From NCBI GenBank assembly GCA_017512365.1, contig JAFWGQ010000034.1:1-64000 (forward strand): a stretch of DNA of 64,000 nt. Reading direction: 5' to 3'. A program made the position numbers and the translations under genes. The DNA is from Mogibacterium sp. (lineage in GTDB: Bacteria > Bacillota > Clostridia > Peptostreptococcales > Anaerovoracaceae). The notes under the pieces are model-generated. The model made no database searches. It was not told the origin of the DNA and saw nothing but the letters and a program-made list of their open reading frames with translations. Shown piece by piece: positions 15,169 to 53,083 of this stretch; position 1 is the stretch's first letter, and each line of letters starts with the position of its first letter.

Positions 15169-16473
15169 CTATCTGCCTCCTTTCCTGCTGCGCGTTATCT
15201 GCTCGAGTATCTCATCGTCAGTATAGTAGCGCGCGGATGTGTATGTCCTGAGCTTGTTGCTCGATGTGATCACCGGCATCTTCTCGCTGAGAGGATTGTT
15301 CATGTACATCAGCGGGCATATATACGAGGTGATGACTCCCGTCGCTTTGAGCCTGTCCGCGTACGGGGTCTTTTCGAAGGCTTCGAGCACGTCAGGCGCG
15401 GCTGTGAACACCGTCGGCACGGACACTTTGCCGGCTCCGCTCTTCGCGAGGCCTTCTTCGACCTTGTCCGTCCAGTCCCTGAGCTGCTGCAGGCTCATGT
15501 GCGGGCATCCCATGAAGCAGAGCTTAGGCTGCGCTTCAGGATCCTTCCAGATAACAGGGTACTCCCTGTACACCCTCTCGAGCTCGGCGTCGTCTATCAC
15601 GTAGGTCTTCGCGTCTTTTTTGATGAGCTTCTTCCCGGACTTCTTCGCCTCAGGCGTGAGCCCGTCGACGTGAAAGAGCCCCACGGCTCCGTTCGATGCT
15701 GTGGCAGCTCCGAAGTCCTTGAGGTATGTGCACGCCTCGTCATCGAGCTCGTTCCCGAGCCACTTGTCGAGTCCTGTGATGTACGGAACGTCCTCCATGA
15801 CCTTCATGCCTATGGCCGATCCGAGCAGCTGCGCTTCAGGCTTCTTTGAGGTCTTTACCTCGACTATCCAGTCGGCTTTGCGGCCCTCGTCTGTAAGCAG
15901 CCCGAACTTAGGCACATATCCTATGACCGAGCCCATCAGGTCGATGATGCCGGAATTGCGGTTGCACCTGGCGCCGAGCACGGAATTCGCGTACACGACT
16001 GCCGATGACTCGGACCAGCTGAGCACTTCGCCGAAGCCCGGCTTATTGCCCACCTCATCCATGTAGCAGGTGCAGGTGAAGGCGTTGTCCGAAAGAAGGC
16101 CGAGATCGGCGAGCTGTTTTTCGTAATCCTTCTGTCTGCTGTACATGAAGAGTTTGAACACCACGTCCTGCGCGATGTTCGTCGGCACGTTCGGGTCGAG
16201 CGGCTTCGGATCCACCGTGAATTTCTGTCCGGAAAAAGCTCCCGCCTCGAGCAGCTTGTCCATGAGCTCGTAGACAGGTCCGAGCGCCTTGAGGCCGAAG
16301 GATGTCACGAGGTGGTTGTACTTGCTGCTGATCGGCACCATCTCGGTCGCTCCGAAGAGCTCGCCGTACCTGACCAGCGATTCCATGACCTTCGCGAGCG
16401 TCTCGCCTTTGGAACCCTCAAGTATCGCTTTCTGTTCGTCTGTAAGTTTTACCTTGTATTCCAATACTCTCAT
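15169..16473 (-). CDS. Aconitase X catalytic (large) subunit, DUF521
   Basis: Large subunit of AcnX, 434 residues. Typical pieces: LTDEQKAILEGSKGE at 10, MVPISSKYNHL near 46, a cysteine in FTCTCYMDEVGNKPGFGE near 132, ARCNRNSG near 169, and CFMGCPHMSLQQLRDW near 319. These cysteines match the Fe-S ligands described for the family. It is followed without gap by the small subunit and preceded by a prolyl-tRNA deacylase of the PrdX type, which hints at proline or hydroxyproline metabolism. That link is inference from position only. Confidence 0.92.
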   Translation of the reverse strand: MRVLEYKVKLTDEQKAILEGSKGETLAKVMESLVRYGELFGATEMVPISSKYNHLVTSFGLKALGPVYELMDKLLEAGAFSGQKFTVDPKPLDPNVPTNIAQDVVFKLFMYSRQKDYEKQLADLGLLSDNAFTCTCYMDEVGNKPGFGEVLSWSESSAVVYANSVLGARCNRNSGIIDLMGSVIGYVPKFGLLTDEGRKADWIVEVKTSKKPEAQLLGSAIGMKVMEDVPYITGLDKWLGNELDDEACTYLKDFGAATASNGAVGLFHVDGLTPEAKKSGKKLIKKDAKTYVIDDAELERVYREYPVIWKDPEAQPKLCFMGCPHMSLQQLRDWTDKVEEGLAKSGAGKVSVPTVFTAAPDVLEAFEKTPYADRLKATGVITSYICPLMYMNNPLSEKMPVITSSNKLRTYTSARYYTDDEILEQITRSRKGGR

Positions 16474-37003: not shown

Positions 37004-37984
37004 TCACAGCCTGAACCTCTTCATGTCCACATTCCCGTTGTCTTTGAACTCAACGCCCTCCGCTTCGAGCATCTCCCTCTGTTCCGGCCAGCCGGGTACC
37101 GTCCGCCCCGCGCTGTTCACGACTCTGTGGCAGGGATGATCGCCGAAACGGTCGGCCATGCTCATTATCTTTCCGACGAGCCTCGCGTTCTTCGGGCGCC
37201 CGACAGCCTCTGCTATCTGTCCGTATGACATCACTCTGCCCGGAGGTATGCTGTCCGCGACTGCATATACCTCGCGCATGAGGCTCTCGTTCATCACCCC
37301 CGCATTTCCGGAGGTCAGGCGGAAGCTCTCCTCCACAAGGTCCATCACGTCACCGTCATCAAGGCTGTCGTCGAGCGTGACGGATATCCACTTGCTGTGG
37401 TTCATGTGATAGGCAGGGTATATCCCCCTGATCCTGTGAAGAGCCGCAGTCCTGCTCTCATCCGCCTTCAGGTTCAGCACGTCGACGAGGTCTTCATCCC
37501 CGTCTTTGTCCAGCAGCTTCCTTTCGATGTTCATTATGAGACCGAACCATTTATCGCTGCCGCCGTGTCTGAAGACTCCGGCAGGCCCGTACCTGCCTCC
37601 GTCCCACGGAAAGTCCGGCTCCACCCCGTAGCGGCCGAGTATGGCTTCGGCTATGCGGTTGCTCTGGTCCGCTGCAAAGGCGACGTCGCTGCAGCAGCTG
37701 TCAGCGATGTCCTGCAGCAGTTCCGCATACGCCTCCCTCACGGCGCCCACGAAAGCGCCCGTATGGTTCGGCATGCGAAGAGGAAGATACTCATCGCCCG
37801 TCATATTGTCGATCACCCTGCCGCGGACAGTTCCGTTCTCATGTACCCTTATCTCCGCTGTAAAGTCGCCGTCCATGAAGACGCGCGACAAAAACCGGCA
37901 GGCGTCTTTGTCTTCAAATCCGTAATCTGCCAGTTTTCGGGTTTCGAATCTTTTTCTGCTGAATATCTTCTGTTCTATTGTCAT
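37004..37984 (-). CDS. Fusion of MmcQ/YjbR-like domain and MGMT-type alkyltransferase
   Basis: 326 residues. Residues 1-220 look like a MmcQ/YjbR protein (for example SDKWFGLIMNIERKLL near 147, AYHMNHSKWISVTL near 195). Residues 235-326 form an O6-alkylguanine-DNA alkyltransferase-type domain: PPGRVMSYGQIAEAVGRPKNAR near 251 and the active-site PCHRVV near 284. With the cysteine kept, it could repair or flag alkylated DNA. The joined arrangement is unusual. No Shine-Dalgarno is evident before the ATG. Confidence 0.82.
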   Translation of the reverse strand: MTIEQKIFSRKRFETRKLADYGFEDKDACRFLSRVFMDGDFTAEIRVHENGTVRGRVIDNMTGDEYLPLRMPNHTGAFVGAVREAYAELLQDIADSCCSDVAFAADQSNRIAEAILGRYGVEPDFPWDGGRYGPAGVFRHGGSDKWFGLIMNIERKLLDKDGDEDLVDVLNLKADESRTAALHRIRGIYPAYHMNHSKWISVTLDDSLDDGDVMDLVEESFRLTSGNAGVMNESLMREVYAVADSIPPGRVMSYGQIAEAVGRPKNARLVGKIMSMADRFGDHPCHRVVNSAGRTVPGWPEQREMLEAEGVEFKDNGNVDMKRFRL

Positions 37985-43947: not shown

Positions 43948-43994
43948 AGAAAGAAAAGCTGATCCTGACGGAGGCTTTGCTCCATCAGGATCCA
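43948..43994 (-). terminator. Strong terminator of the LVIVD operon
   Basis: Minus strand: stem GATCCTGATGGAG / CTCCGTCAGGATC with one T:G pair and a 6-base loop, followed by AGCTTTTCTTTCT. It lies 36 bases past the LVIVD gene stop, closing the operon that starts near 48542. Confidence 0.88.
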
Positions 43995-44029: not shown

Positions 44030-45421
44030 TCAGTCTTCGTATGTTTTGCGAAGGATGTAGAATCCGTCGCTGTTCGCGTCGATGATGATATTGCCCCTGT
44101 CGTCGACTACGATGTCTTCGGTCATGGCCATCATCGGTCCCGGGAACGGGAAGAATTTCTTCGTCGGGTTCGGCGGAATGAAGTATGCCTTCTCCTTGAT
44201 GTAGAAAGGATCGGATACGTCATAGATCCTCAGTCCCGCGGCGAAGTAGCAGTCGTATACCACGTCCGTCCTCTGCTCGAGCCATGGCTTTCCGTCCATA
44301 GGCTCATGCAGGTTATGCGGTCCGAACGGCCCTCCCTTCGAGCCCTCTGCCAGGCAGTAGGTATTGAAGTTAGGAGCCGGGAAGTCCTCAGGGACTTCAG
44401 GATACGGGAACTCCGCTATCAGCACAGGATTCGCCGGATCGCTCACGTCCACCATGTGGATGTTGTTCACAGACTGCGCCTGCGTGACCATCCCGTCCTT
44501 GATGAAGCCGAATCTCTCGCCCTCGTTCGTGACCACGCAGAGGTCTCTTCCCTTCAGCGGAAGAGCCGTGTGAGTCCTTGCTCCGGCGAGCCTGCTCGAG
44601 AAGGCAGGCATGAACCTGAGCTGTCCGAGAGCCTTCGGTCTTGTGAAGTCTGAGACATCGAGCACATACAGTCCGTCTCCGCCGTAGCCGAGATAGGCCT
44701 TGTCGCCGAGCACGAACGGAGGTCCGTGCATCCAGCCTTTGTCCATGAAGTCAGGATTATGAGGAGCCGAGTGGTCCACCTCGCGCCCCGGCACTCCGTA
44801 GATGTACTGATGAGGCGCCCACCAGCGTCCGACCTCTTTGATGTTCTGAGGGTCCGAGATGTCCACGATCCTGTAGATCATACCCTCGTGCTCATCGGCC
44901 TCGGCCGAAAGATGCACATAGTCGCCGCCGTTGTACATGAAGCGGTGGACGCCCATCGAATAAGGGACTCCGCAGTCCCAGTATCCGAGGAACTCAGGAT
45001 TCTCAGGATCCTTTTTGAGGTCGTATACCATTATGCCCTGCAGGCTCTTCATCTTGGCGCGGTCGCCGACCAGCACTCCCGGGCCGCTTCCCGACGTCAG
45101 AGCGAATACCAGCTTGTCGTCGGCGATCTGCAGCTTAGGGATCGACGTCGTAGGATATTCCTCGATGCTGAACGGGCGCCACTTCTTGATGAATACAGGA
45201 TCCCGCGGATCCGTGACATCGCTTATCATGATGCCCACGCCTTCCGGACCTGCCGCGAACGCAGCTCCGTAGAGAAGGTATCTGCCGGACTCCGTGCGGT
45301 AAAGAGCCATCTGGAACATGCCGGCTTTGCCGTCAAGATCGCAGTAGCCGAGCACTTCGAGGTTCTTTATGTATCCGTCGTTGCCTTCGCCTTTCGAATA
45401 AAAATATTTTCCTTTGCCCAT
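44030..45421 (-). CDS. LVIVD-repeat beta-propeller protein
   Basis: 463 residues without a signal peptide. At least six LVIVD-type repeats are seen: GIMISDVTDPRDPVFI, MVYDLKKDPENPEFLG, RIVDISDPQNIKEVG, YVLDVSDFTRPKALG, MVDVSDPANPVLIAE and IYDVSDPFYIKEKAY, which should form a beta-propeller. Many conserved His and Trp residues (HQYIYGVPGREVDHSAPHN near 230) suggest a ligand or metal pocket. CAAGGAGAATCAAA precedes the ATG at 45421. It is the last gene of the LysR-linked operon, probably cytoplasmic. Function unknown. Confidence 0.85.
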   Translation of the reverse strand: MGKGKYFYSKGEGNDGYIKNLEVLGYCDLDGKAGMFQMALYRTESGRYLLYGAAFAAGPEGVGIMISDVTDPRDPVFIKKWRPFSIEEYPTTSIPKLQIADDKLVFALTSGSGPGVLVGDRAKMKSLQGIMVYDLKKDPENPEFLGYWDCGVPYSMGVHRFMYNGGDYVHLSAEADEHEGMIYRIVDISDPQNIKEVGRWWAPHQYIYGVPGREVDHSAPHNPDFMDKGWMHGPPFVLGDKAYLGYGGDGLYVLDVSDFTRPKALGQLRFMPAFSSRLAGARTHTALPLKGRDLCVVTNEGERFGFIKDGMVTQAQSVNNIHMVDVSDPANPVLIAEFPYPEVPEDFPAPNFNTYCLAEGSKGGPFGPHNLHEPMDGKPWLEQRTDVVYDCYFAAGLRIYDVSDPFYIKEKAYFIPPNPTKKFFPFPGPMMAMTEDIVVDDRGNIIIDANSDGFYILRKTYED

Positions 45422-45453
45422 TTTGATTCTCCTTGATGGATGTTGGAAAAAAC

Positions 45454-45939
45454 TTATCTGTTCATCAGCCTGTGGAGCTTGTCCACGAGCGCTCCTATGT
45501 AATACACGCCTACGAGCATCGCCGCGCCGATCTGGACGGTGAGACTCATCAGAGGAGTCGTCCTGTCCAGGTTCATCGCCAGCATCCCTATCGCCCATCC
45601 GGCAAGCCACGAAGGCATATAGAAAAGCGACGGGAGCTTCTGCGATATCACGACTGCCATGAAGCCCAGCACTGCCAGTACCGCGAACAGCGTCACGTCC
45701 GGATCCAGCGGCGTACGCGCCATTACCATTGTGGCTGCGAGAGCCCATATGTCGCCGGCCAGATAGCCGAGCGCGATCCTATGGGCGTCCTCCCATTTGT
45801 TGCCGTTGGCTGCGTAGATGCCCGCCGCTATCAGAGCGACCGGCCCTACGCTGTTGCCGAGGTACGGGCTCGCAACGGCCCATGCCGGAGGCAGCACCGC
45901 TATGAGGAGCGCAAGCGTCAAAATCTCTTTTCTGCTCAT
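45454..45939 (-). CDS. DUF1097 family membrane protein
   Basis: 161 residues with five or six hydrophobic helices, fitting the small DUF1097 (YcdZ-like) family: the N-terminal half has SVGPVALIAAGIYAANGNKWEDAHR near 30, then GYLAGDIWALAATMV. It starts one base after the upstream gene ends (TAGGATG), so translation is coupled. Probably a transporter or membrane partner of the operon. No function is established for the family. Confidence 0.78.
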   Translation of the reverse strand: MSRKEILTLALLIAVLPPAWAVASPYLGNSVGPVALIAAGIYAANGNKWEDAHRIALGYLAGDIWALAATMVMARTPLDPDVTLFAVLAVLGFMAVVISQKLPSLFYMPSWLAGWAIGMLAMNLDRTTPLMSLTVQIGAAMLVGVYYIGALVDKLHRLMNR

Positions 45940-45940
45940 C

Positions 45941-46816
45941 CTATCTCATCGTGATGTATCCGCGGTACTGTGTCAGATTGTCTGATCTGGCGTAATCCGA
46001 CAGGAAGATGCCGCTGATCCCGTAGGATTTCTTGAGATAAGGGAAGTCCTCTGTCTCGGCCCATGCAGGCTTTTTGCACTTCTTTGCAGCTGCTTCGCAT
46101 GCATCGACCCATGCAGTCTGGCACTCGAACCACATCTCTACGATACGGTCGAAGTCGCAGTTGTTGACTTCCTTTTTGATCTTGCTGGATACGCAGCGCG
46201 TGCATCCCTCGTGCGAAGTCCAGGCAGGGATGAACTCCTCTCTGAGCCACTTGTCGCCCTCTTCGGCGCTGACGCCTTCAGGATACTTTACGACGAACTG
46301 CCATCTGTAGTTCGGTCCGTCCTCGACCGTGCGGCCCTCGCCCTTGAAGTCCTCTTCCCACCATACAGGCACGAATGCGAATATGAAAGGAACAGTTCCC
46401 GCGGCCTCGTCGCCCTTTGTGGCTCTTGCGTCATCTCCCTCGAGGTTGACCTCTTCGGATTTTTCGATGCTGTGGGAATGACCCGTGTCAGGGATGTTGT
46501 TCTGCCATACGAGCACGTCCGTCGGGAAGTACTCGGTCAGGACCTTGTGATGGTCACCTGCGAAGCCCAGATCGTTAGGGTTGGCGAGCCAGTAGTGCTC
46601 AGTCATCTGCATCCTTACGGTGCCGAATCTCTCTCCGCCCGGAGGAGTCGGGAGCGCCGGATAGAACGCGTACTTGCTTACGTAAGGTCCGAACTGCGAG
46701 ATGCTGTCCGGAACGTGATATCTGTAGAGCCAGTTCTCGAGTTTGATCCTGTAGTCCTCGTGAGCGAGGTCGACCAGGATTATGCTTCTTACCGGATAAA
46801 ATTCAGGTCTGTTCAT
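45941..46816 (-). CDS. Duplicated alpha/beta-barrel (EthD/ABM-like) protein
   Basis: Unknown soluble protein of 291 residues. Two halves each resemble a dimeric alpha/beta-barrel unit: residues 8-110 (SIILVDLAHEDYRIKLENWL... MQMTEHYWLANP) and 140-250 (PFIFAFVPVWWEEDF... WLREEFIPAWTSHEG). Cys pair CTRC near 200 and several histidines are present. Folds of this type bind small aromatic or polyketide ligands or haem; the match is by pattern only. Followed directly by DUF1097. Confidence 0.7.
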   Translation of the reverse strand: MNRPEFYPVRSIILVDLAHEDYRIKLENWLYRYHVPDSISQFGPYVSKYAFYPALPTPPGGERFGTVRMQMTEHYWLANPNDLGFAGDHHKVLTEYFPTDVLVWQNNIPDTGHSHSIEKSEEVNLEGDDARATKGDEAAGTVPFIFAFVPVWWEEDFKGEGRTVEDGPNYRWQFVVKYPEGVSAEEGDKWLREEFIPAWTSHEGCTRCVSSKIKKEVNNCDFDRIVEMWFECQTAWVDACEAAAKKCKKPAWAETEDFPYLKKSYGISGIFLSDYARSDNLTQYRGYITMR

Positions 46817-46842
46817 TGTTTCTCCTTTCTTCAGGAAAAGGC

Positions 46843-46883
46843 GGGGCCGCCGGCCGCAACTCTGCTGCAGTCCATGCGGCCCC
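46843..46883 (-). repeat. Intercistronic hairpin in the LVIVD operon
   Basis: GGGGCCGC (46843-46850) and GCGGCCCC (46876-46883) with a 25-base loop, between the flavodoxin gene and the next gene. It may set relative expression by processing or partial termination. Confidence 0.5.
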
Positions 46884-46935
46884 TGTAAGTATTTATGAGT
46901 GTTGCTTTATTATGAGGAGCCGTTCCCCGGGTCTG

Positions 46936-47913
46936 TTAATTGCCTTTTGACGGGGATGGTGTAGGCTCGATAACGCTTGTGTAGTGCTCCTTGCGGGCCT
47001 TGAACTCAGGATCCTTGTAGAGGTTCATGAGCCTGCCCTCGTTCTCGAAGATGTCCTGTCCGTGAGCAGCCTTGCCCGAGAGGATGTCGTGAGCATGCCA
47101 TTCTGTCGAAGGATCGAACTTGAATACCATCGCGTCGCCTTCAACTACCAGCTTGCCGCGGAGTCCGCAGAGCTCGCACTCGGCGTCTGTCGTGCCAGGG
47201 AAGATGTAGAAAGCGTTGCCGTGGCAGTGCGGGCATGCACCCTTCTTGCCCTTCCAGAGATCCACATCATCGGAACCCATGATCATCAGGTCGTTGTCGA
47301 TAATGTACTGAGCAGCCTCTACGAGATTTCTTGCCATTTCCTTCGTTCTCTCGATCTTGTCGTCCTGCATGATGACGTCCTTGCACCATGAGAAGTATTC
47401 ATTGTCGATGACCTTCCAGCCCGGGCTCATGGCCAGCATGGCGTGATCAGTCTCTGTCCTGACCGCCCAGTCGGATCCGCCGATAGCGAGGAAGGAGATC
47501 GCCTTCTGTCTGAAGTACTTCATGTCCAGAGGCTCCTTGCCCTGCTCCTTGAGCTTCTCCTGAAGTCCGAGCAGCATGCCTGTGTCGTGTCCAGGGCCCA
47601 TCCTGTCGCAGCAGATGTGGAAGAGTCCGGATCCGCCCGACTCATAGATAGGGTCTACGATGAATACTCCGTCAGCCTCTACCATCTTTTCGTAAAGGGC
47701 TGCGAAATCGTCCTTTCTTGTGCAGACCATGCCCTTGCCCATCACGAGGCTTCTCGAGCAGGCCACGCAGCCTGTGCATGTCTGGAGATCCCAGTCAAAT
47801 GCATGTATGAATTCGATCTCGGCACCGAGCTTTTTGCACTCCTCGAGAGCGACTCTGCACATGGTGTCGTTGTTTCCGTTCTTTGTTCCGTAAGAGATTC
47901 CAAGGATCTTCAT
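46936..47913 (-). CDS. Flavodoxin-fold reductase with C-terminal zinc ribbon
   Basis: 325 residues. The N-terminal half is an NADPH-dependent FMN reductase-like flavodoxin domain (MKILGISYGTKNGNND at 1-16, ADGVFIVDPIYESG near 78) and carries CTGCVAC near 46, a cysteine set like that of iron-sulfur flavoproteins. The C-terminal part has CPHC near 232 and CELC near 253, a rubredoxin-like zinc or iron ribbon. Such a pair is suited to electron transfer. GGAGG precedes the ATG at 47913. Second gene of the operon. Confidence 0.85.
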   Translation of the reverse strand: MKILGISYGTKNGNNDTMCRVALEECKKLGAEIEFIHAFDWDLQTCTGCVACSRSLVMGKGMVCTRKDDFAALYEKMVEADGVFIVDPIYESGGSGLFHICCDRMGPGHDTGMLLGLQEKLKEQGKEPLDMKYFRQKAISFLAIGGSDWAVRTETDHAMLAMSPGWKVIDNEYFSWCKDVIMQDDKIERTKEMARNLVEAAQYIIDNDLMIMGSDDVDLWKGKKGACPHCHGNAFYIFPGTTDAECELCGLRGKLVVEGDAMVFKFDPSTEWHAHDILSGKAAHGQDIFENEGRLMNLYKDPEFKARKEHYTSVIEPTPSPSKGN

Positions 47914-47961
47914 ATTGTTTCCCTCCTGCAATATGCAATATCTTTAGCTGTTATGCTGTTT

Positions 47962-47984
47962 CGATGATATCACCGGCATCATCG
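47962..47984. repeat. Intercistronic hairpin after the 4-TM gene
   Basis: CGATGAT (47962-47968) and ATCATCG (47978-47984), 9-base loop, in the 122-base gap between the first two genes of the operon. No U tract on the coding strand. Confidence 0.4.
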
Positions 47985-48035
47985 AAAAAATGACCGTTTT
48001 CTGAAGTATGTGTGTTTTTTGATCCCTCCGCAGGC

Positions 48036-48542
48036 CTACTCCCGGCCCGGAGCTCCGGGTCCCATCTCAGGCGCCGGCTCGTTGCAGATCGCTCTTGAGC
48101 ATCTGTCAGCGACAGGGTTCCAGAGCATCGCGATGATCAGAGTCGGAATGTAGCATGGTATGAAGCCCTTGAGGCATGATGCGATGTATGGTCCGAACTG
48201 GAATCCGGCAGGCGAGTTGGCCATGCCGATCGCTGTCATGATCAGGTCAAGGATGACGCAGAACACAGCGGCGACCACCATGTTCAGTATGAGTCCGAAC
48301 TTGAATGTTCCCGGCTTTGCGTACTTTGAAGCGACCGCGAATCCCCATCTTTCGGCATGGAGGAAGTTAACGAAGAACGTCACTACGTAGGCTATGCATG
48401 CCATTCTGATGAAGTTAGGTCCGTTCAGGCTTCCCGGCGCGTCGATGTTTGCGAGCGCGAGAGCGACAAGAGTGATAACTAAGCTGAGCGGCAGGTCCAT
48501 GATGAGTGCGTATACCGCTGTCAGTTTTGCGCTTTTCTGCAT
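48036..48542 (-). CDS. Four-helix membrane protein of unknown function
   Basis: 168 residues with four hydrophobic helices (about 12-32, 44-62, 82-105, 122-142) and a hydrophilic C-terminal tail rich in Pro, Gly and Glu. FVNFLHAERWGFAVASKY near 57 is a notable loop. No family is recognised with confidence; the four-helix pattern recalls DUF2798-type proteins. GGGAGAAAG precedes the ATG. First gene of the LysR-linked operon, transcribed from the promoter at 48634. Confidence 0.72.
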   Translation of the reverse strand: MQKSAKLTAVYALIMDLPLSLVITLVALALANIDAPGSLNGPNFIRMACIAYVVTFFVNFLHAERWGFAVASKYAKPGTFKFGLILNMVVAAVFCVILDLIMTAIGMANSPAGFQFGPYIASCLKGFIPCYIPTLIIAMLWNPVADRCSRAICNEPAPEMGPGAPGRE

Positions 48543-48600: not shown

Positions 48601-48633
48601 GTTGTTTGAATTTTAACAACGGCGGTCTGCCCT

Positions 48634-48662
48634 GTATAATCATTTAAGTGCTGAAGTCTTCA
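48634..48662 (-). promoter_or_regulatory. Promoter of the LVIVD operon
   Basis: Minus strand: -10 TTATAC (48634-48639), 17-base spacer, weak -35 TGAAGA (48657-48662) that overlaps the edge of the palindrome at 48659-48680. A weak -35 touching the regulator site is the usual layout of a LysR-activated promoter. Confidence 0.6.
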
Positions 48663-48680
48663 TAACCATATGGTTATGAA
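48659..48680. promoter_or_regulatory. 22-bp perfect palindrome, candidate LysR operator
   Basis: Half-site TTCATAACCAT followed by its exact complement. It fits the T-N11-A rule of LysR sites, lies between the LysR stop and the operon, and abuts the -35 box. Very likely the binding site of the LysR protein encoded at 48688-49611. Confidence 0.8.
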
Positions 48681-48687
48681 TCAGTAT

Positions 48688-49611
48688 TTACAGCAGTTTC
48701 AGTGTCCTCATTCTTGTTTTTTCTTGTTTTTCTATGACCTCTTTCAGTATGCTCTCCATGGCGAGGACCTGTTCGTCCTCCCTGGACCTGAGCCTCGCGA
48801 CCGAGACGCTGTCCTTCGCGCTGAACGGGATCCAGTCAAGGTCCTCCGCTCCTCTGGCCCACACCCACTCGTCAGCGATGGTGACTCCCATGTTGTTCCT
48901 TACGCAGGTGATGGTCGATTCGTGGTTCTTGACGAAGCGCACATCGGGGATGAAGCCGTAAGGCCGCGTGTAGTTCGAGATCGCCTCGACTATCATGCGG
49001 TCGACTATCTCCCACGGAGCGAGGAAGGTCTCTTCCCTGAAGTCCCTCAGCGTCAGCCCGTCCTTGCCTTTCGAAGCGAGAGGATGCCTGGCCGAGTATA
49101 TGAGTATCTTGCCGATCTCGGCGACATCGCTGTATTCGAATTCGCTGTACTTCATCACGGTGTTCTTCATGGTCACGATGATGTCCAGCGAATCCGTCAG
49201 GAGTCCCGTGGTGAGCTCCTTGACCCCGCAGCAGTTTATGACTACCTCCGAGTCAGGAAACTCCGCCTTGTACTTCTTCATCATCGGCGGGATTATGTTG
49301 AAAAGATCCCAGCCCTCAAGGAAGCCCACTCTCATGACCGCGTTCTTCTTGCCCAGAATGTGGTCGGCCTTGATCCGGGTGTTTATGTACTCGGCCTTGA
49401 AGCGGCTGAAAAGGTCAAAGTACAGGCGCCCCACCTCAGTGAGCTCCGTCCTCTGATTGTTCCTCCTGAAGAGCTTGGCACCCAGCTCCTTTTCGAGCTG
49501 GGATATCTGCCTTGAGATCGCCGGCTGCGATACAAAAAGCTCCTCGGATGTCTTTGTGAAGCTGAGGTTCGTGGCCACAGCCATGAAATAATCTATCTGA
49601 AGATCCGTCAC
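48688..49611 (-). CDS. LysR-family transcriptional regulator
   Basis: 307 residues. Winged-helix N terminus (1-62; MAVATNLSFTKTSEELFVSQ, then PAISRQISQLEKELGAKLFRR) and a substrate-binding effector domain. The GTG start at 49611 is chosen: it overlaps the TGA of the antiporter gene (GTGA) and has AGGGAG upstream; the first residues VTDLQIDYFMAVA fit the family. It faces the same way as the operon it adjoins and probably activates it through the palindrome at 48659. Confidence 0.93.
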   Translation of the reverse strand: MTDLQIDYFMAVATNLSFTKTSEELFVSQPAISRQISQLEKELGAKLFRRNNQRTELTEVGRLYFDLFSRFKAEYINTRIKADHILGKKNAVMRVGFLEGWDLFNIIPPMMKKYKAEFPDSEVVINCCGVKELTTGLLTDSLDIIVTMKNTVMKYSEFEYSDVAEIGKILIYSARHPLASKGKDGLTLRDFREETFLAPWEIVDRMIVEAISNYTRPYGFIPDVRFVKNHESTITCVRNNMGVTIADEWVWARGAEDLDWIPFSAKDSVSVARLRSREDEQVLAMESILKEVIEKQEKTRMRTLKLL

Positions 49612-50894
49612 TGTGTCATCTCCCTGTTCTTCTGTCCGGCAAGCCTCCGGCATATGCCGTCATACACTCTCTTTACCGTCAGGCCCTGAACGACCGTCGT
49701 GAAGAAAGCTATCGCGTAGGTGCATCCCGTCACTATGAAATAGGTCTGTTCAGGCAGCATCTCCCTTGTGCTCATCGCGAGCGCGATCGAAAGTCCGCCG
49801 CGCAGTCCGCCCCAGGTCAGCAGCTCCACAAAGCTGCGCCTGTCATATCCGTCAGGCAGTTCGCCCATGATAAGAGTGGAGACTGCAAGGCTGCCGCTCC
49901 TGGCGATGAGGTTCACGATTATCCCCGCCGCAGCAAGGATGATCACATGCTCCATCTGCAGGATGCGTATAAAGGTAAGACCCAGCATCACATACAGCAG
50001 CGAGTTTAGCAGGAGATCGAGCGTCTCCCATATGGTCGAAAAATGCTTCGTGCGCTCAGCCTGAGCGGTCATTCCACAGCGGCTGCGGAGCGCCGAAAAG
50101 AGTATCCCGCAGACGACCGACGCGATCGCTCCGGAGAAGTCCGCCTTTTCGCAGATCACATATGAGAGCGAGACCGTGAGTACACTTATGAAAAAGCCCA
50201 GCTCCCTGCTCTCCGTGCGCCTGTACAGCTGAAAGCACAGCCATGTCACCACGCAGCCGACCAGAGCGGCTCCGAGCAGTTCCCTTGCCATGATCGAAAA
50301 GAAGCCTCCCTTCCCGTCGCCGGTGACCATGGCCGAGAACACGACGAAGAGCGCGACGCCCACACCGTCGTTGAACAGAGACTCTCCCTGTATAAGGAAG
50401 GAGATGTCTTCAGGCAGGCCGAACTTGCTGAGTATGCCGGTCGCCGCTATAGGATCCGTCGGCGCCACTATGCTCCCGAACATCAGGCACAGCGGAAGTG
50501 TCAGCCCCAGTCCCAGCAGCGCCGACACCCCGTAGAACAGCACCCCGTAGAACACGGCTCCAAGCAGCGTGCATATGATCGAAAGCACCGTGACCTGCCT
50601 CGCCTGTTTCCGGAAGTCCGACAGCCTGAGATGGACTGAGCCTGCAAAGAGCATCAGGCAGAGCACCCCTTCCAGCAGGAAGCCCTCTATGTCAAAAAAG
50701 TGCGCTTTTGCCAGCACATCGCCGGCTCCCTCGCCGCTTATCAGCATGTCCGCCGCAAGCCATATAAAACCTATTATCGATGAGAACAGCAGCAGAGCTA
50801 TCTCATGCGGCATCCGCGTGACCTTTTCATTGAATGTCCCGGTCACACAGACTACCGCCATCGCGACAGTGAAAACAAAAAGCATCCCGTTCAA
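49608..50894 (-). CDS. CPA1-family sodium/proton antiporter
   Basis: Membrane exchanger of 428 residues with about 12 helices. GSIVAPTDPIAATGILSKFGLP near 140 and GESLFNDGVGVALFVVF near 166 are the CPA1 (NhaP/NHE) core motifs with the transport Asp residues, and LLTWGGLRGGLSIALAMS near 362 is a later family motif. TTG at 50894 is the best start: AGGTG lies 5 bases upstream; an ATG three codons later is the alternative. Its stop overlaps the LysR start, so both are co-translated. Why an antiporter travels with this regulator is open. Confidence 0.93.
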   Translation of the reverse strand: MNGMLFVFTVAMAVVCVTGTFNEKVTRMPHEIALLLFSSIIGFIWLAADMLISGEGAGDVLAKAHFFDIEGFLLEGVLCLMLFAGSVHLRLSDFRKQARQVTVLSIICTLLGAVFYGVLFYGVSALLGLGLTLPLCLMFGSIVAPTDPIAATGILSKFGLPEDISFLIQGESLFNDGVGVALFVVFSAMVTGDGKGGFFSIMARELLGAALVGCVVTWLCFQLYRRTESRELGFFISVLTVSLSYVICEKADFSGAIASVVCGILFSALRSRCGMTAQAERTKHFSTIWETLDLLLNSLLYVMLGLTFIRILQMEHVIILAAAGIIVNLIARSGSLAVSTLIMGELPDGYDRRSFVELLTWGGLRGGLSIALAMSTREMLPEQTYFIVTGCTYAIAFFTTVVQGLTVKRVYDGICRRLAGQKNREMTQ

Positions 50895-51450: not shown

Positions 51451-52890
51451 TCAGAATATCTCGGCGAGCATGCACCTTGCCGAGCCGCCTCCGTATTTTT
51501 CGATGCAGTCCAGGGCGGGTACAATCAGATTCATCTCCGACTCAAGCACCGCGGTCTGGTCCTCTGAAAGACTGTCGTGCGCAGTGCGGGACATGACCAG
51601 GCACGGTTCCCCGTCCCCGCTGCGGAGCTCGAGCATGTTCCCGGCGAAGTGCTCCATCTGATCGATGCTGATCTCCATTATCATCTTTCCCGCATTCCTG
51701 AGAGACTCTCTCACCACTGACCTCTGAACGGGGTCTCTTATCGCTTCCGTGCAGACGACCGCGATCCTGCTCCCGACATGCATCATTACGTTAGTATGGT
51801 ATATCTGAGCTCCGCTCCTGCCGGCGGCGTCAAACAAGAGCGGGCGGTATCCCAGGCGCAGACACAGATATTCCAGCACGGCCGCGCTCGTCCTCGGCGA
51901 TCTGCACGCATAGGCGATCCTGTTCACCCTGTCAAGGACCATGGATCCCGTGCCTTCAAGGAACAGACCCTCGCTCTCGAAGCGAGTGAGATCGACAGTT
52001 CTTCTTACATCAGCGTTCATCCTGACAGCCTCGAGCACAGCCGGATCCCTTTCGAGCCGCCTGTTTTCAGCGAGCATCGGATAGAGCACCAGGGTCCCGT
52101 CGTCATGGACGGAGAACCAGTTGTTCGGAAAGACGGCATCAGGAGTGCGCGGCTCCTCTGTATCCTCCGCAGCGATCACGCTGATCCCGTTCTCTCTCAG
52201 AAGTGCGATATACGCATCCGTCTCCCTGCAGGCCGCCGCGGCTGTGCCGCTCCCCTCTCCTTTTTTCTGAAAGGCGTTGCTTGCGGCTGTCTCTTCATTG
52301 AAGCCGAAGGCGGCCGGTCTGACCATCAGCACGGTGTCTGTCGTCTGCACGGAAGGCCCGGATCCTCTGATGACGCTGTTGTCATACGCCCTGAGTTCGC
52401 AGTTAGCCTGGGAAAAGCACACGAAGTCTTCCCTGTCCATTTCCTCAAAATAGTTGCGTATGATACGGCAGATGCCGCCGTGCGTCACGAGGAGCACGTT
52501 CCTCCCCGCTGTTTCCCTGAGCAGGGAGACCACCCTTGCAGCCATTTCGAAATGCGATTCTGTTCCCGGATATCCCGCGCAGTACTTCCTCTTTGCCTCC
52601 TGAAATCCCCTGTCAGATCTGTCTACGCCCTCGAAGCGCCCGAATTCCTGCTCGATCAGCCTGTCATCGGTCCTGTATCCCGCTCCGGTCTCAGCGGAAA
52701 TGATCTCCGCGGTCTGCCTGGTGCGGCCGAGAGGAGATGCTATGATCTCATCCAGCTCAAGGTCCGCGACCGAGCGCGCCAGTTCACGCGCCTGCCCGGT
52801 CCCTCTGGCGTCAAGGGGTATGTCAGTGCGCCCCAGAACCTTATTCAGAGCGTTCCACTCCGTTTCTCCGTGTCTCGCAACGTAAAGCAT
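51451..52890 (-). CDS. Histidine phosphatase fused to CtlX-type amidinohydrolase
   Basis: 479 residues, two enzymes in one chain. Residues 1-190: phosphoglycerate-mutase-type histidine phosphatase with RHGETEWN at 6-13, EFGRFEGV near 86 and VTHGG near 139. Residues 212-479: CtlX/arginine-deiminase-related hydrolase with FPNNWFSVHDDG near 277, FLEGTGSMVLD near 323, YHTNVMMHVG near 378 and a C-terminal catalytic Cys in SARCMLAEIF. Both catalytic sets look complete. AAAGGAAGCGG precedes the ATG. CtlX hydrolyses citrulline-like ureido or guanidino compounds; the joint substrate is unknown. Confidence 0.88.
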   Translation of the reverse strand: MLYVARHGETEWNALNKVLGRTDIPLDARGTGQARELARSVADLELDEIIASPLGRTRQTAEIISAETGAGYRTDDRLIEQEFGRFEGVDRSDRGFQEAKRKYCAGYPGTESHFEMAARVVSLLRETAGRNVLLVTHGGICRIIRNYFEEMDREDFVCFSQANCELRAYDNSVIRGSGPSVQTTDTVLMVRPAAFGFNEETAASNAFQKKGEGSGTAAAACRETDAYIALLRENGISVIAAEDTEEPRTPDAVFPNNWFSVHDDGTLVLYPMLAENRRLERDPAVLEAVRMNADVRRTVDLTRFESEGLFLEGTGSMVLDRVNRIAYACRSPRTSAAVLEYLCLRLGYRPLLFDAAGRSGAQIYHTNVMMHVGSRIAVVCTEAIRDPVQRSVVRESLRNAGKMIMEISIDQMEHFAGNMLELRSGDGEPCLVMSRTAHDSLSEDQTAVLESEMNLIVPALDCIEKYGGGSARCMLAEIF

Positions 52891-52959
52891 CCGCTTCCTT
52901 TCTGCTGTATCTGCCCGCGATCGCGCGATCCTGCATGATGAAAAAAACACGGACCTGAC

Positions 52960-52988
52960 TTGACACTCACAGCCGGATTTGTTATATT
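52960..52988 (+). promoter_or_regulatory. Promoter of the YgjV gene
   Basis: Perfect -35 TTGACA (52960-52965), 17-base spacer, -10 TATATT (52983-52988). Transcription would begin near 52995, leaving a leader of about 110 bases. Confidence 0.85.
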
Positions 52989-52994
52989 TGCGCC

Positions 52995-53083
52995 TGTCAT
53001 TTATGCCCGTAATCGGACGGGCGATCCACAAACGACCGTAAATCGCACCAATGACACCAGCACGTATCGTGTCATTTTTTTAT
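52995..53083 (+). promoter_or_regulatory. Attenuator leader, candidate riboswitch, of the YgjV gene
   Basis: Segment 1 TGTCATT (52995-53001) can pair with segment 2 AATGACA (53050-53056); segment 2 can instead pair with segment 3 TGTCATT (53070-53076), forming a stem (ATGACAC / GTGTCAT) followed by T7, a terminator. Between segments 1 and 2 lie hairpin GCCCGT-AATCGG-ACGGGC (53005-53022) and a stem GCGAT / ATCGC, making a three-way junction. Mutually exclusive pairing of this kind is the hallmark of transcription-attenuating riboswitches. No known class is recognised. Confidence 0.65.

Follow-up and report, generated by a model that had tools for sequence, protein, structure and literature searches.

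A LysR-linked gene block in Mogibacterium sp. encodes homologues of flavone reductase and chalcone isomerase and an LVIVD propeller that is a candidate auronol hydrolase

The window analyzed here, a 64-kb stretch of DNA from Mogibacterium sp., an uncultured gut bacterium (contig JAFWGQ010000034.1), contains five open reading frames, all on the minus strand, with a LysR-family gene upstream of them on the same strand (Table 1). The arrangement is real, and the five frames were found where the original prediction had placed a five-gene block on one strand. Hydropathy of the first protein agrees with about four transmembrane segments, as had been proposed, and the fourth protein is indeed a DUF1097 member. 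The first protein (hereafter the 4-TM protein) did not reach the cut-off of any Pfam family and had no match in NCBIfam; permeation of a substrate or product is possibly its role, which is a guess. For the last gene, encoding an LVIVD protein, a start at the ATG at 45421 agrees better with relatives than does the longer reading frame, and the LysR gene possibly begins at a GTG near 49611, which would make it overlap the stop codon of the antiporter gene that precedes it.

Table 1. Genes and sequence features of the operon and its flanks. CHI loci are the 80 best-ranked of the 150 identified.
Feature	Positions	Strand	Evidence
LysR-family regulator	48688..49653	-	PF00126 72.1 bits; PF03466 51.7 bits
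Perfect 11+11 palindrome (22 bp), candidate LysR operator	48659..48680	.	Lies between LysR and operon
Promoter-like site, TG before second hexamer	48610..48638	-	4 sites in region vs 3.4 expected in shuffles; weak alone
Small protein, about four transmembrane segments	48036..48542	-	Hydropathy; cluster in 19/80 CHI loci
FLR homologue, FMN-dependent ene-reductase by homology	46936..47913	-	PDB 7D38, E 1.5e-78
Bacterial CHI	45941..46816	-	PF18232 166.4 bits vs cut-off 25; PDB 4D06, E 1.6e-92
DUF1097 membrane protein, optional	45454..45939	-	PF06496 64.9 bits vs cut-off 24.6
LVIVD beta-propeller, candidate metal-dependent auronol (alphitonin) C-C hydrolase	44030..45421	-	PF08309 38.8 bits vs cut-off 20.2
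Intrinsic-terminator-like hairpin	43961..43992	-	13 pairs, then T-rich tail

The original prediction held that none of these proteins has a known role; two of the five, however, fall in families whose function is known. The second, previously described as an electron-transfer flavodoxin, is instead like flavone reductase (FLR): its alignment to 7D38 spans residues 1-323 of 325, with an FMN_red domain (PF03358, 56.4 bits) and with the C-terminal domain and tail included, and it is 42% identical to the FLR of Flavonifractor plautii. Residues D103, G106, and W149 are kept, and the equivalents of His271 and Ile275 are H284 and I288; mutation of G106, W149, H271, or I275 is reported to have strongly lowered or abolished activity (PMC7862272). 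The contacts W72, K92, and P307 of the F. plautii enzyme are not kept (A72, S92, and S320 in the window), and the available text of PMC7862272 does not demonstrate that these three are essential. The third protein, formerly read as a ligand-binding barrel, is a bacterial chalcone isomerase (CHI) by its PF18232 and 4D06 matches. A Chalcone_N domain is present, and the match to the CHI of Eubacterium ramulus is full-length (residues 5-291 of 291). The equivalent of the catalytic His33 occurs in all 83 aligned CHI rows and that of Gln101 in 82 of them; the window protein has HxPD like 4D06, and the Asp36 position is Glu in some relatives. Both earlier labels thus give way to homologues in which key published residues are retained, and by analogy with the characterized enzymes the two proteins would be expected to have FLR activity and CHI activity (isomerization or ring contraction), respectively.

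The neighborhoods of CHI genes were compared across 80 loci, the best of 150 when ranked by likeness to a single CHI; close relatives are included (7/80 from the window's genus, and Oribacterium three times). Genes were labeled by blastp and clustering, with one member per cluster scanned against families. LysR-type matches (blastp, E 1e-15 or better) occur in 42 of these 80 loci. A perfect palindrome like that between the LysR gene and the operon was expected zero times in 100 shuffles of the window. Among the 11 loci whose genes include a blastp match to the 4-TM protein, 10 have, near the equivalent position, a relaxed dyad pattern that was composed only after the sequences had been viewed. 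The sole exception, L155, also has no LysR match. Control by LysR, as predicted, is supported by this dyad but remains putative; the regulator would sense a flavonoid, a hypothetical ligand, probably via the dyad. A promoter and a terminator had been proposed for the ends of the operon, and sites resembling each are present, both weak by themselves because counts of either kind are no higher than in shuffles. The site search of the region reported no minus-strand promoter-like sites inside the five-gene block.

DUF1097 had been counted as a member of the set; our results showed it to be optional. CHI and LVIVD matches share one contig in all 26 genus genomes that have both, and the gap between them is DUF1097-sized (489-542 bases) in 5 genomes and 7-46 bases in the other 21, which leaves no room for the gene. 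DUF1097 itself is present in this gap in the window and in two further loci, L054 (genome G402) and L154 (G432). Its candidacy as a core gene was consequently rejected.

Of the claim of a six-repeat LVIVD propeller, the family assignment stands and the repeat number does not, since a motif search gave seven blade landmarks. In an alignment of 45 sequences (the window protein and those from 44 of the 47 CHI loci with LVIVD, three under 440 aa being left out), H159, H232, H284, and H369 are invariant, as are many Glu and Asp residues, and the four His fall between successive blade landmarks. The four-His motifs also recur in three distant LVIVD proteins from genomes without CHI. When the LVIVD profile was compared with the PDB, its only matches, and hence its only solved relatives, were two haloalkylphosphorus hydrolase sequences (5HRM and 5IOJ; E 4.7e-10), a likeness that consists of local profile matches alone, to an enzyme with a different substrate. 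The title of a paper in a reference list describes the Sphingobium enzyme as a binuclear metal center in a seven-bladed propeller. The window protein has no match to PF18089, the phloretin hydrolase family; it may work like phloretin hydrolase (Phy) but belongs to another family, and the activity we propose for it is a prediction. LVIVD might instead serve the pathway without catalysis, as a binding or scaffold propeller, as LVIVD is named in an abstract on cell-surface protein repeats (PMC2447325) and no title among the LVIVD literature found reports an LVIVD enzyme. We consider this very unlikely given the four invariant His, the many invariant Glu and Asp, the hydrolase similarity, and a hydropathy profile with no hydrophobic segment of the kind that would indicate the cell surface.

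LVIVD follows CHI in its distribution. In one phylum sample, LVIVD (at least 665 bits) and CHI were found in the same 3 of 398 genomes (Fisher 9.6e-8; 1.3e-5 without the window's own genome). Within the genus, presence or absence of the two agrees in 35 of the 36 genomes searched for both. The disagreeing genome (G422) has an LVIVD match cut at a contig start and an FLR match 18 bases from a contig end; since both sit at contig ends, its CHI may fall in a gap. This agreement supports, in kind, the proposal of a pathway dedicated to one compound. Across the 80 loci, LVIVD is present in 47, and it stands with FLR and CHI in 13 arrangements, a few of them incomplete where the locus reaches a contig end. 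The genes were likewise found together outside this family and, in Leptolinea (Chloroflexota), whose locus is among the 13 arrangements, outside the phylum. One genus member (L149) has, in a row, LysR, 4-TM, FLR, CHI, LVIVD, an NTPase, and the alpha, beta, and gamma subunits of an oxidoreductase. Where a CHI locus lacks LVIVD, the latter was found elsewhere in 25 of the 32 such genomes searched. Some observations point the other way: LVIVD is remote from CHI in 12 regions drawn from 11 genomes, E. ramulus and two Mogibacterium among them (none with CHI near, only two with FLR near), and genome G518 has an LVIVD match of 762.6 bits with a CHI match of only 21 bits.

Genes for a 2-oxoacid:ferredoxin oxidoreductase occur in 27 of the 80 CHI loci, in 21 of them together with LVIVD, and 24 of the 27 also have a phosphotransbutyrylase- or butyrate-kinase-type gene. 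For the oxidoreductase whose alpha subunit occurs in 8 loci, the one cluster member scanned scores as an indolepyruvate ferredoxin oxidoreductase alpha subunit (719.5 bits; cut-off 650.9). The commoner oxidoreductase, with its alpha subunit in 19 loci, has its best score to VorB, the branched-chain 2-oxoacid type and not an arylpyruvate enzyme. The scanned phosphotransbutyrylase lies above Pfam cut-offs and below those of NCBIfam. Each of the four LVIVD clades in the tree includes oxidoreductase loci. The window's genome has its oxidoreductase on a different contig from the operon, and the 16 kb surrounding that oxidoreductase showed neither phosphotransbutyrylase nor butyrate kinase. Since 39 of 47 genus genomes have the oxidoreductase, some of them without CHI, its being specific to the flavonoid operon in the genus was rejected.

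Homology, gene linkage, co-occurrence, and invariant residues support a flavonol pathway, and we regard it as moderately probable that the operon serves flavonol degradation through FLR, CHI, and then LVIVD as an auronol hydrolase, followed by the oxidoreductase and release of arylacetate and ATP. The compounds would be flavonoids, most likely flavonols. FLR would reduce flavonols (e.g., quercetin) to flavanonols (taxifolin), which CHI would convert to auronols (alphitonin) by ring contraction via the chalcone and its diketo tautomer. LVIVD, as a hypothetical metal-dependent hydrolase, would cut the aryl-carbonyl bond of the auronol, the products being phloroglucinol and an arylpyruvate such as 3,4-dihydroxyphenylpyruvate. 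The arylpyruvate, as the presumed substrate of the oxidoreductase, would then yield arylacetyl-CoA, from which phosphotransbutyrylase and butyrate kinase, where present, might form arylacetate and ATP. Overall, quercetin + 2 H2O would give phloroglucinol + 3,4-dihydroxyphenylacetate + CO2, and the reaction would be redox-neutral because the oxidoreductase returns the electrons spent by FLR. An alternative is that the operon handles flavones and flavanones, LVIVD hydrolyzing or hydrating the CHI-made chalcone and not an auronol. Both flavones and flavonols are reported substrates of FLR (PMC7862272), and flavanones of CHI (PMC9694015). PF18089 was found in 0/47 genus genomes, by a profile search that does not prove absence; this favors the flavonol reading, but the flavone and flavanone branch too would then need some other cleaving enzyme. 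Chalcone cleavage yields no 2-oxoacid, yet oxidoreductase genes accompany CHI, and mostly LVIVD, at the frequencies given above; we therefore judge this alternative unlikely.

The flavonol route could also leave LVIVD an auxiliary part, such as ring opening or tautomerization of the auronol, with another hydrolase performing C-C cleavage. To weigh this, PF18089 was sought, by the same search as for the genus, in 50 CHI genomes, comprising 32 with a locus lacking LVIVD (all but L151, which shares its genome with L130) and 18 picked for having LVIVD, so that 18 of the 43 LVIVD-positive genomes are positive by selection. PF18089 was present in 33 of the 50: both families occur in 26 genomes, as an auxiliary role would allow, and 17 have LVIVD only, 7 have PF18089 only, and none has neither, which argues against it (Fisher one-sided 0.043, two-sided 0.080, uncorrected for kinship). 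PF18089 searches can miss a DAPG-hydrolase-like family, because its scores lie near or below the PF18089 threshold. That gene directly adjoins LVIVD in Clostridium puniceum, which favors an auxiliary role and led us to reject LVIVD as its strict replacement; it is nonetheless found in 5/33 CHI loci without LVIVD and 0/47 with it. The window and the other available stretches of genus DNA gave no match to the DAPG-hydrolase-like family, and the window operon has no further hydrolase. An auxiliary role thus appears rather improbable, and cleavage of the auronol by LVIVD remains our preferred reading.

Comparison with known flavonoid degraders shows both likeness and difference. In F. plautii, flr and chi have neighboring locus tags (PMC7862272), like the linkage in the window, and in strain ATCC 29863 LVIVD (L096, 3827-5242) is downstream of both, as in the window; no mention of it was found in the passages available on these genes. 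The window block differs in having LysR, the 4-TM protein, and DUF1097, in its modest FLR identity, and with respect to PF18089, which is found in F. plautii (G502) and in none of the 47 genus genomes searched. E. ramulus is reported to convert quercetin via taxifolin and alphitonin to 3,4-dihydroxyphenylacetate (PMC11170127), and both of its genomes searched have CHI, FLR, and LVIVD, as in the window; there, however, LVIVD is apart from CHI, beside a LysR gene, and PF18089 proteins are present. Clostridium butyricum has an operon-like flavonoid-degrading set with FLR, as here (FLR-Fcr-Phy; PMC11868195), but its available description reports no CHI and invokes reductive cleavage and phloretin hydrolase, as opposed to CHI and LVIVD. 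In Catenibacillus, C. decagia forms 3,4-dihydroxyphenylacetate from quercetin and C. scindens forms 3,4-dihydroxyphenyllactate (PMC11170127). C. scindens is said there to lack CHI, yet the first steps are held by those authors to be the same; should this be correct, cleavage of alphitonin would not require LVIVD, and that would count against our reading. Genome G519, probably C. scindens, gave neither a CHI nor an LVIVD match, a result that fits but that leaves the two genes undistinguished.

Phloroglucinol and hydroxyphenylacetic acids are the products when anaerobes split quercetin and other flavonols, with the step after alphitonin assigned to an "unknown enzyme" in a 2025 paper (PMC12203004). 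Dihydroxyphenylpyruvate has been proposed as a hypothetical product of alphitonin cleavage (PMC11170127), and titles and abstract openings in the open literature named no candidate for the enzyme. We tentatively propose, with confidence slightly short of even, that LVIVD is a metal-dependent C-C hydrolase of a new class, with no relation to phloretin hydrolase, that cleaves auronols and that, with FLR, CHI, the oxidoreductase, phosphotransbutyrylase, and butyrate kinase, forms a redox-neutral, ATP-yielding flavonol fermentation that has spread among anaerobic bacteria of different families and phyla. With a named candidate that is widely distributed and whose putative metal ligands are invariant, the alphitonin step becomes directly testable. 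Moreover, the genes for the oxidoreductase, phosphotransbutyrylase, and butyrate kinase point to flavonols as a possible fuel, beyond a side substrate, which would bear on the polyphenol feeding of ruminants and on gene markers for flavonol degraders.

The PF18232 protein of the operon matched PDB 4D06 (E 1.6e-92) and, by this homology, is a bacterial chalcone isomerase (CHI); an equivalent of His33, which has a catalytic role in CHI (PMC9694015), was present in 83 of 83 aligned CHI rows. The FMN_red protein matched one PDB sequence (7D38 and three further entries; E 1.5e-78), that of the flavone reductase (FLR) of Flavonifractor plautii (PMC7862272). Mutating G106, W149, H271, or I275 caused a strong decrease or complete loss of FLR activity (PMC7862272), and all four residues are kept in the window's homolog; W72, K92, and P307 are not. 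The F. plautii flr and chi genes have neighboring locus tags and, among 14 candidates expressed, four of them chi partners, apigenin was converted by FLR only; the assay used apigenin, not alphitonin, and the section describing it leaves the other candidates unnamed (PMC7862272). A CHI gene was also observed in Scybalocola faecigallinarum CHK178-757 (locus L131:10001-10831, contig DVIT01000022.1), in contrast to PMC11170127, where no CHI is listed for Catenibacillus faecigallinarum.

Features of the operon and its flanks
Feature	Position	Strand	Remark
LysR	48688-49653	-	
Perfect palindrome	48659-48680		
Promoter-like site	48638-48610	-	site counts not above shuffles
Small membrane protein, ~four TM segments	48036-48542	-	
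FMN_red protein (FLR)	46936-47913	-	
PF18232 protein (CHI)	45941-46816	-	
DUF1097	45454-45939	-	
LVIVD protein	44030-45421	-	
Terminator-like hairpin, 13 pairs	43992-43961	-	after LVIVD gene; site counts not above shuffles

The gene block that the original prediction had described as a LysR-controlled operon of unknown function is real, albeit with corrections. A relaxed palindrome pattern, written after the sequences had been viewed, matched 10 of 11 loci with the 4-TM gene; L155, the one 4-TM locus without a match, has no LysR match either. The RUG isolate names of the genus relatives suggest a rumen origin. Elsewhere in the window, and all on the minus strand, one ORF (51451-53031) combines a histidine phosphatase domain (PF00300, 136.6 bits) with a DDAH-type amidinohydrolase domain (PF19420, 315.4 bits), a pairing that looks unusual, another (37004-37984) contains both a YjbR domain and an O6-methylguanine-DNA methyltransferase-type DNA-binding domain, and a third (15169-16473) is an aconitase X homolog (PF04412, 312.8 bits).

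Within Mogibacterium, LVIVD and CHI agreed in 35 of the 36 genomes searched for both, with LVIVD in 27, CHI in 26 of the 27, and neither in nine. In the exception, a contig start truncates the LVIVD match, and only 18 bases separate FLR from the end of a contig. Wherever both occurred, their matches lay on one contig within 550 bases (26/26). In a phylum sample of 398 genomes, CHI was found in three and LVIVD, at 665 bits or more, in the same three; four others had LVIVD matches of 60-201 bits only. A scan of species genomes confirmed 150 CHI places, and among the best 80, LVIVD was present in 47 and FLR in 61; the CHI loci with LVIVD showed 13 gene arrangements, a few of them shortened by contig ends. 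Of 50 CHI genomes, 18 chosen for LVIVD in the locus and 32 without it there, 43 carried LVIVD somewhere (both E. ramulus strains included), as did 25 of the 32. Counting against the proposed role of LVIVD, around LVIVD genes away from CHI (12 regions in 11 genomes) FLR was near in two and CHI in none, and one genome (G518) has LVIVD with a CHI match of just 21 bits. A tree of 48 LVIVD proteins (45 plus three distant rows), built by a quick method with no bootstrap and having long branches at the outgroup, showed four deep clades; the grouping of Leptolinea (Chloroflexota) with F. plautii suggests transfer of LVIVD.

C. decagia forms 3,4-dihydroxyphenylacetate from quercetin, taxifolin, and alphitonin, and for alphitonin cleavage 3,4-dihydroxyphenylpyruvate is given, beside phloroglucinol, as a hypothetical product (PMC11170127); the cleaving enzyme is termed unknown in PMC12203004. 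When all ORFs of the 80 loci were clustered, CHI, FLR, LVIVD, and shadow ORFs were followed by 2-oxoacid:ferredoxin oxidoreductase subunits, a phosphotransbutyrylase-like protein, and butyrate kinase, none of which was named in our hypothesis, formed before the clustering, that alphitonin is the substrate of a hydrolase. Any oxidoreductase subunit occurred in 27 of the 80 loci, phosphotransbutyrylase in 24, and butyrate kinase in 23, and 24 of the 27 also carried one of the latter two. With one member scanned per cluster, the single-chain alpha subunit (8 loci) was assigned to indolepyruvate ferredoxin oxidoreductase alpha (719.5 bits vs. a cut-off of 650.9), while the other (19 loci) scored best as VorB, named for a branched-chain 2-oxoacid (435.9 vs. 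399). Butyrate kinase exceeded its cut-off (440.2 vs. 289.1); phosphotransbutyrylase passed that of Pfam (143.4 vs. 24) but not that of NCBIfam (318.7 vs. 399). Oxidoreductase loci were present in all four LVIVD clades. In L149, a genus member, these genes follow LVIVD, and the window's own genome has a homologous set on another contig (alpha subunit 94%). As a point against the pathway, Mogibacterium uses an oxidoreductase of general type. A P-loop NTPase-like protein that reached the cut-off of no family lies upstream of the oxidoreductase genes (L149:12221-12919 and, in a second locus, L201:6735-7433); its cluster occurs in 19 of the 80 loci, and the protein is also found in the window's own genome.

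Judged by their families, the three enzymes would convert arylpyruvate to arylacetate with a yield of one ATP, and the atom balance closes (quercetin + 2 H2O = phloroglucinol + dihydroxyphenylacetate + CO2). The gene set matches the needs of the flavonol branch, which is favored since chalcone cleavage would give no 2-oxoacid. Alphitonin cleavage by C. scindens, if real as its authors' text allows, may run without LVIVD; LVIVD was not matched in a genome that is probably C. scindens (G519).

Since LVIVD is the only operon protein with neither an assigned role nor predicted membrane segments, it is a strong, testable candidate for the alphitonin-cleaving enzyme. A search for PF18089 (the phloretin/DAPG hydrolase family) gave no match in 47 genus genomes, which does not prove absence, and was positive in 33 of the 50 CHI genomes. 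Both families occurred in 26 of the 50, LVIVD only in 17, PF18089 only in seven, and neither in none, a weak pattern uncorrected for kinship (Fisher, one-sided P = 0.043, two-sided P = 0.080). Among CHI loci, a DAPG-hydrolase-like gene occurred in 5 of the 33 that lack LVIVD and in none of the 47 that have it (Fisher P = 0.0099); in C. puniceum, LVIVD adjoins such a gene. Two members scored 21.1 and 18.6, just under the PF18089 cut-off of 22.7, so this family can escape PF18089 searches. Among the sequences analyzed, six loci carried it, and neither the window nor any genus locus did; members of ~206 aa lie in flavonoid clusters at L088:6389-7021, L090:8047-8664, and L209:9047-9670, the first two alongside an indolepyruvate-type oxidoreductase, and are perhaps a second auronol hydrolase.

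His159, 232, 284, and 369 were invariant in 45 of 45 LVIVD sequences, each between successive blade landmarks. Matches of the LVIVD profile to PDB were limited to two haloalkylphosphorus hydrolase sequences (E 4.7e-10); a cited title describes the Sphingobium enzyme as a seven-bladed propeller with a binuclear metal center. The four-His site is not specific to flavonoids, since three distant LVIVD proteins, encoded in genomes that lack CHI, share the same motifs. These shorter cousins (L185, L186, and L187; ~380 aa), from phylum-sample genomes in which no CHI was found, may represent a wider family of propeller hydrolases; at L185, a flavoprotein-like ORF lies beside the cousin. No prior naming of this enzyme was found in the open-access literature searched, and it may have been named elsewhere. 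The gene set is a predicted flavonoid-degrading cluster of a kind already known, and it includes a candidate for a cleavage step whose enzyme is described as unknown in the literature.
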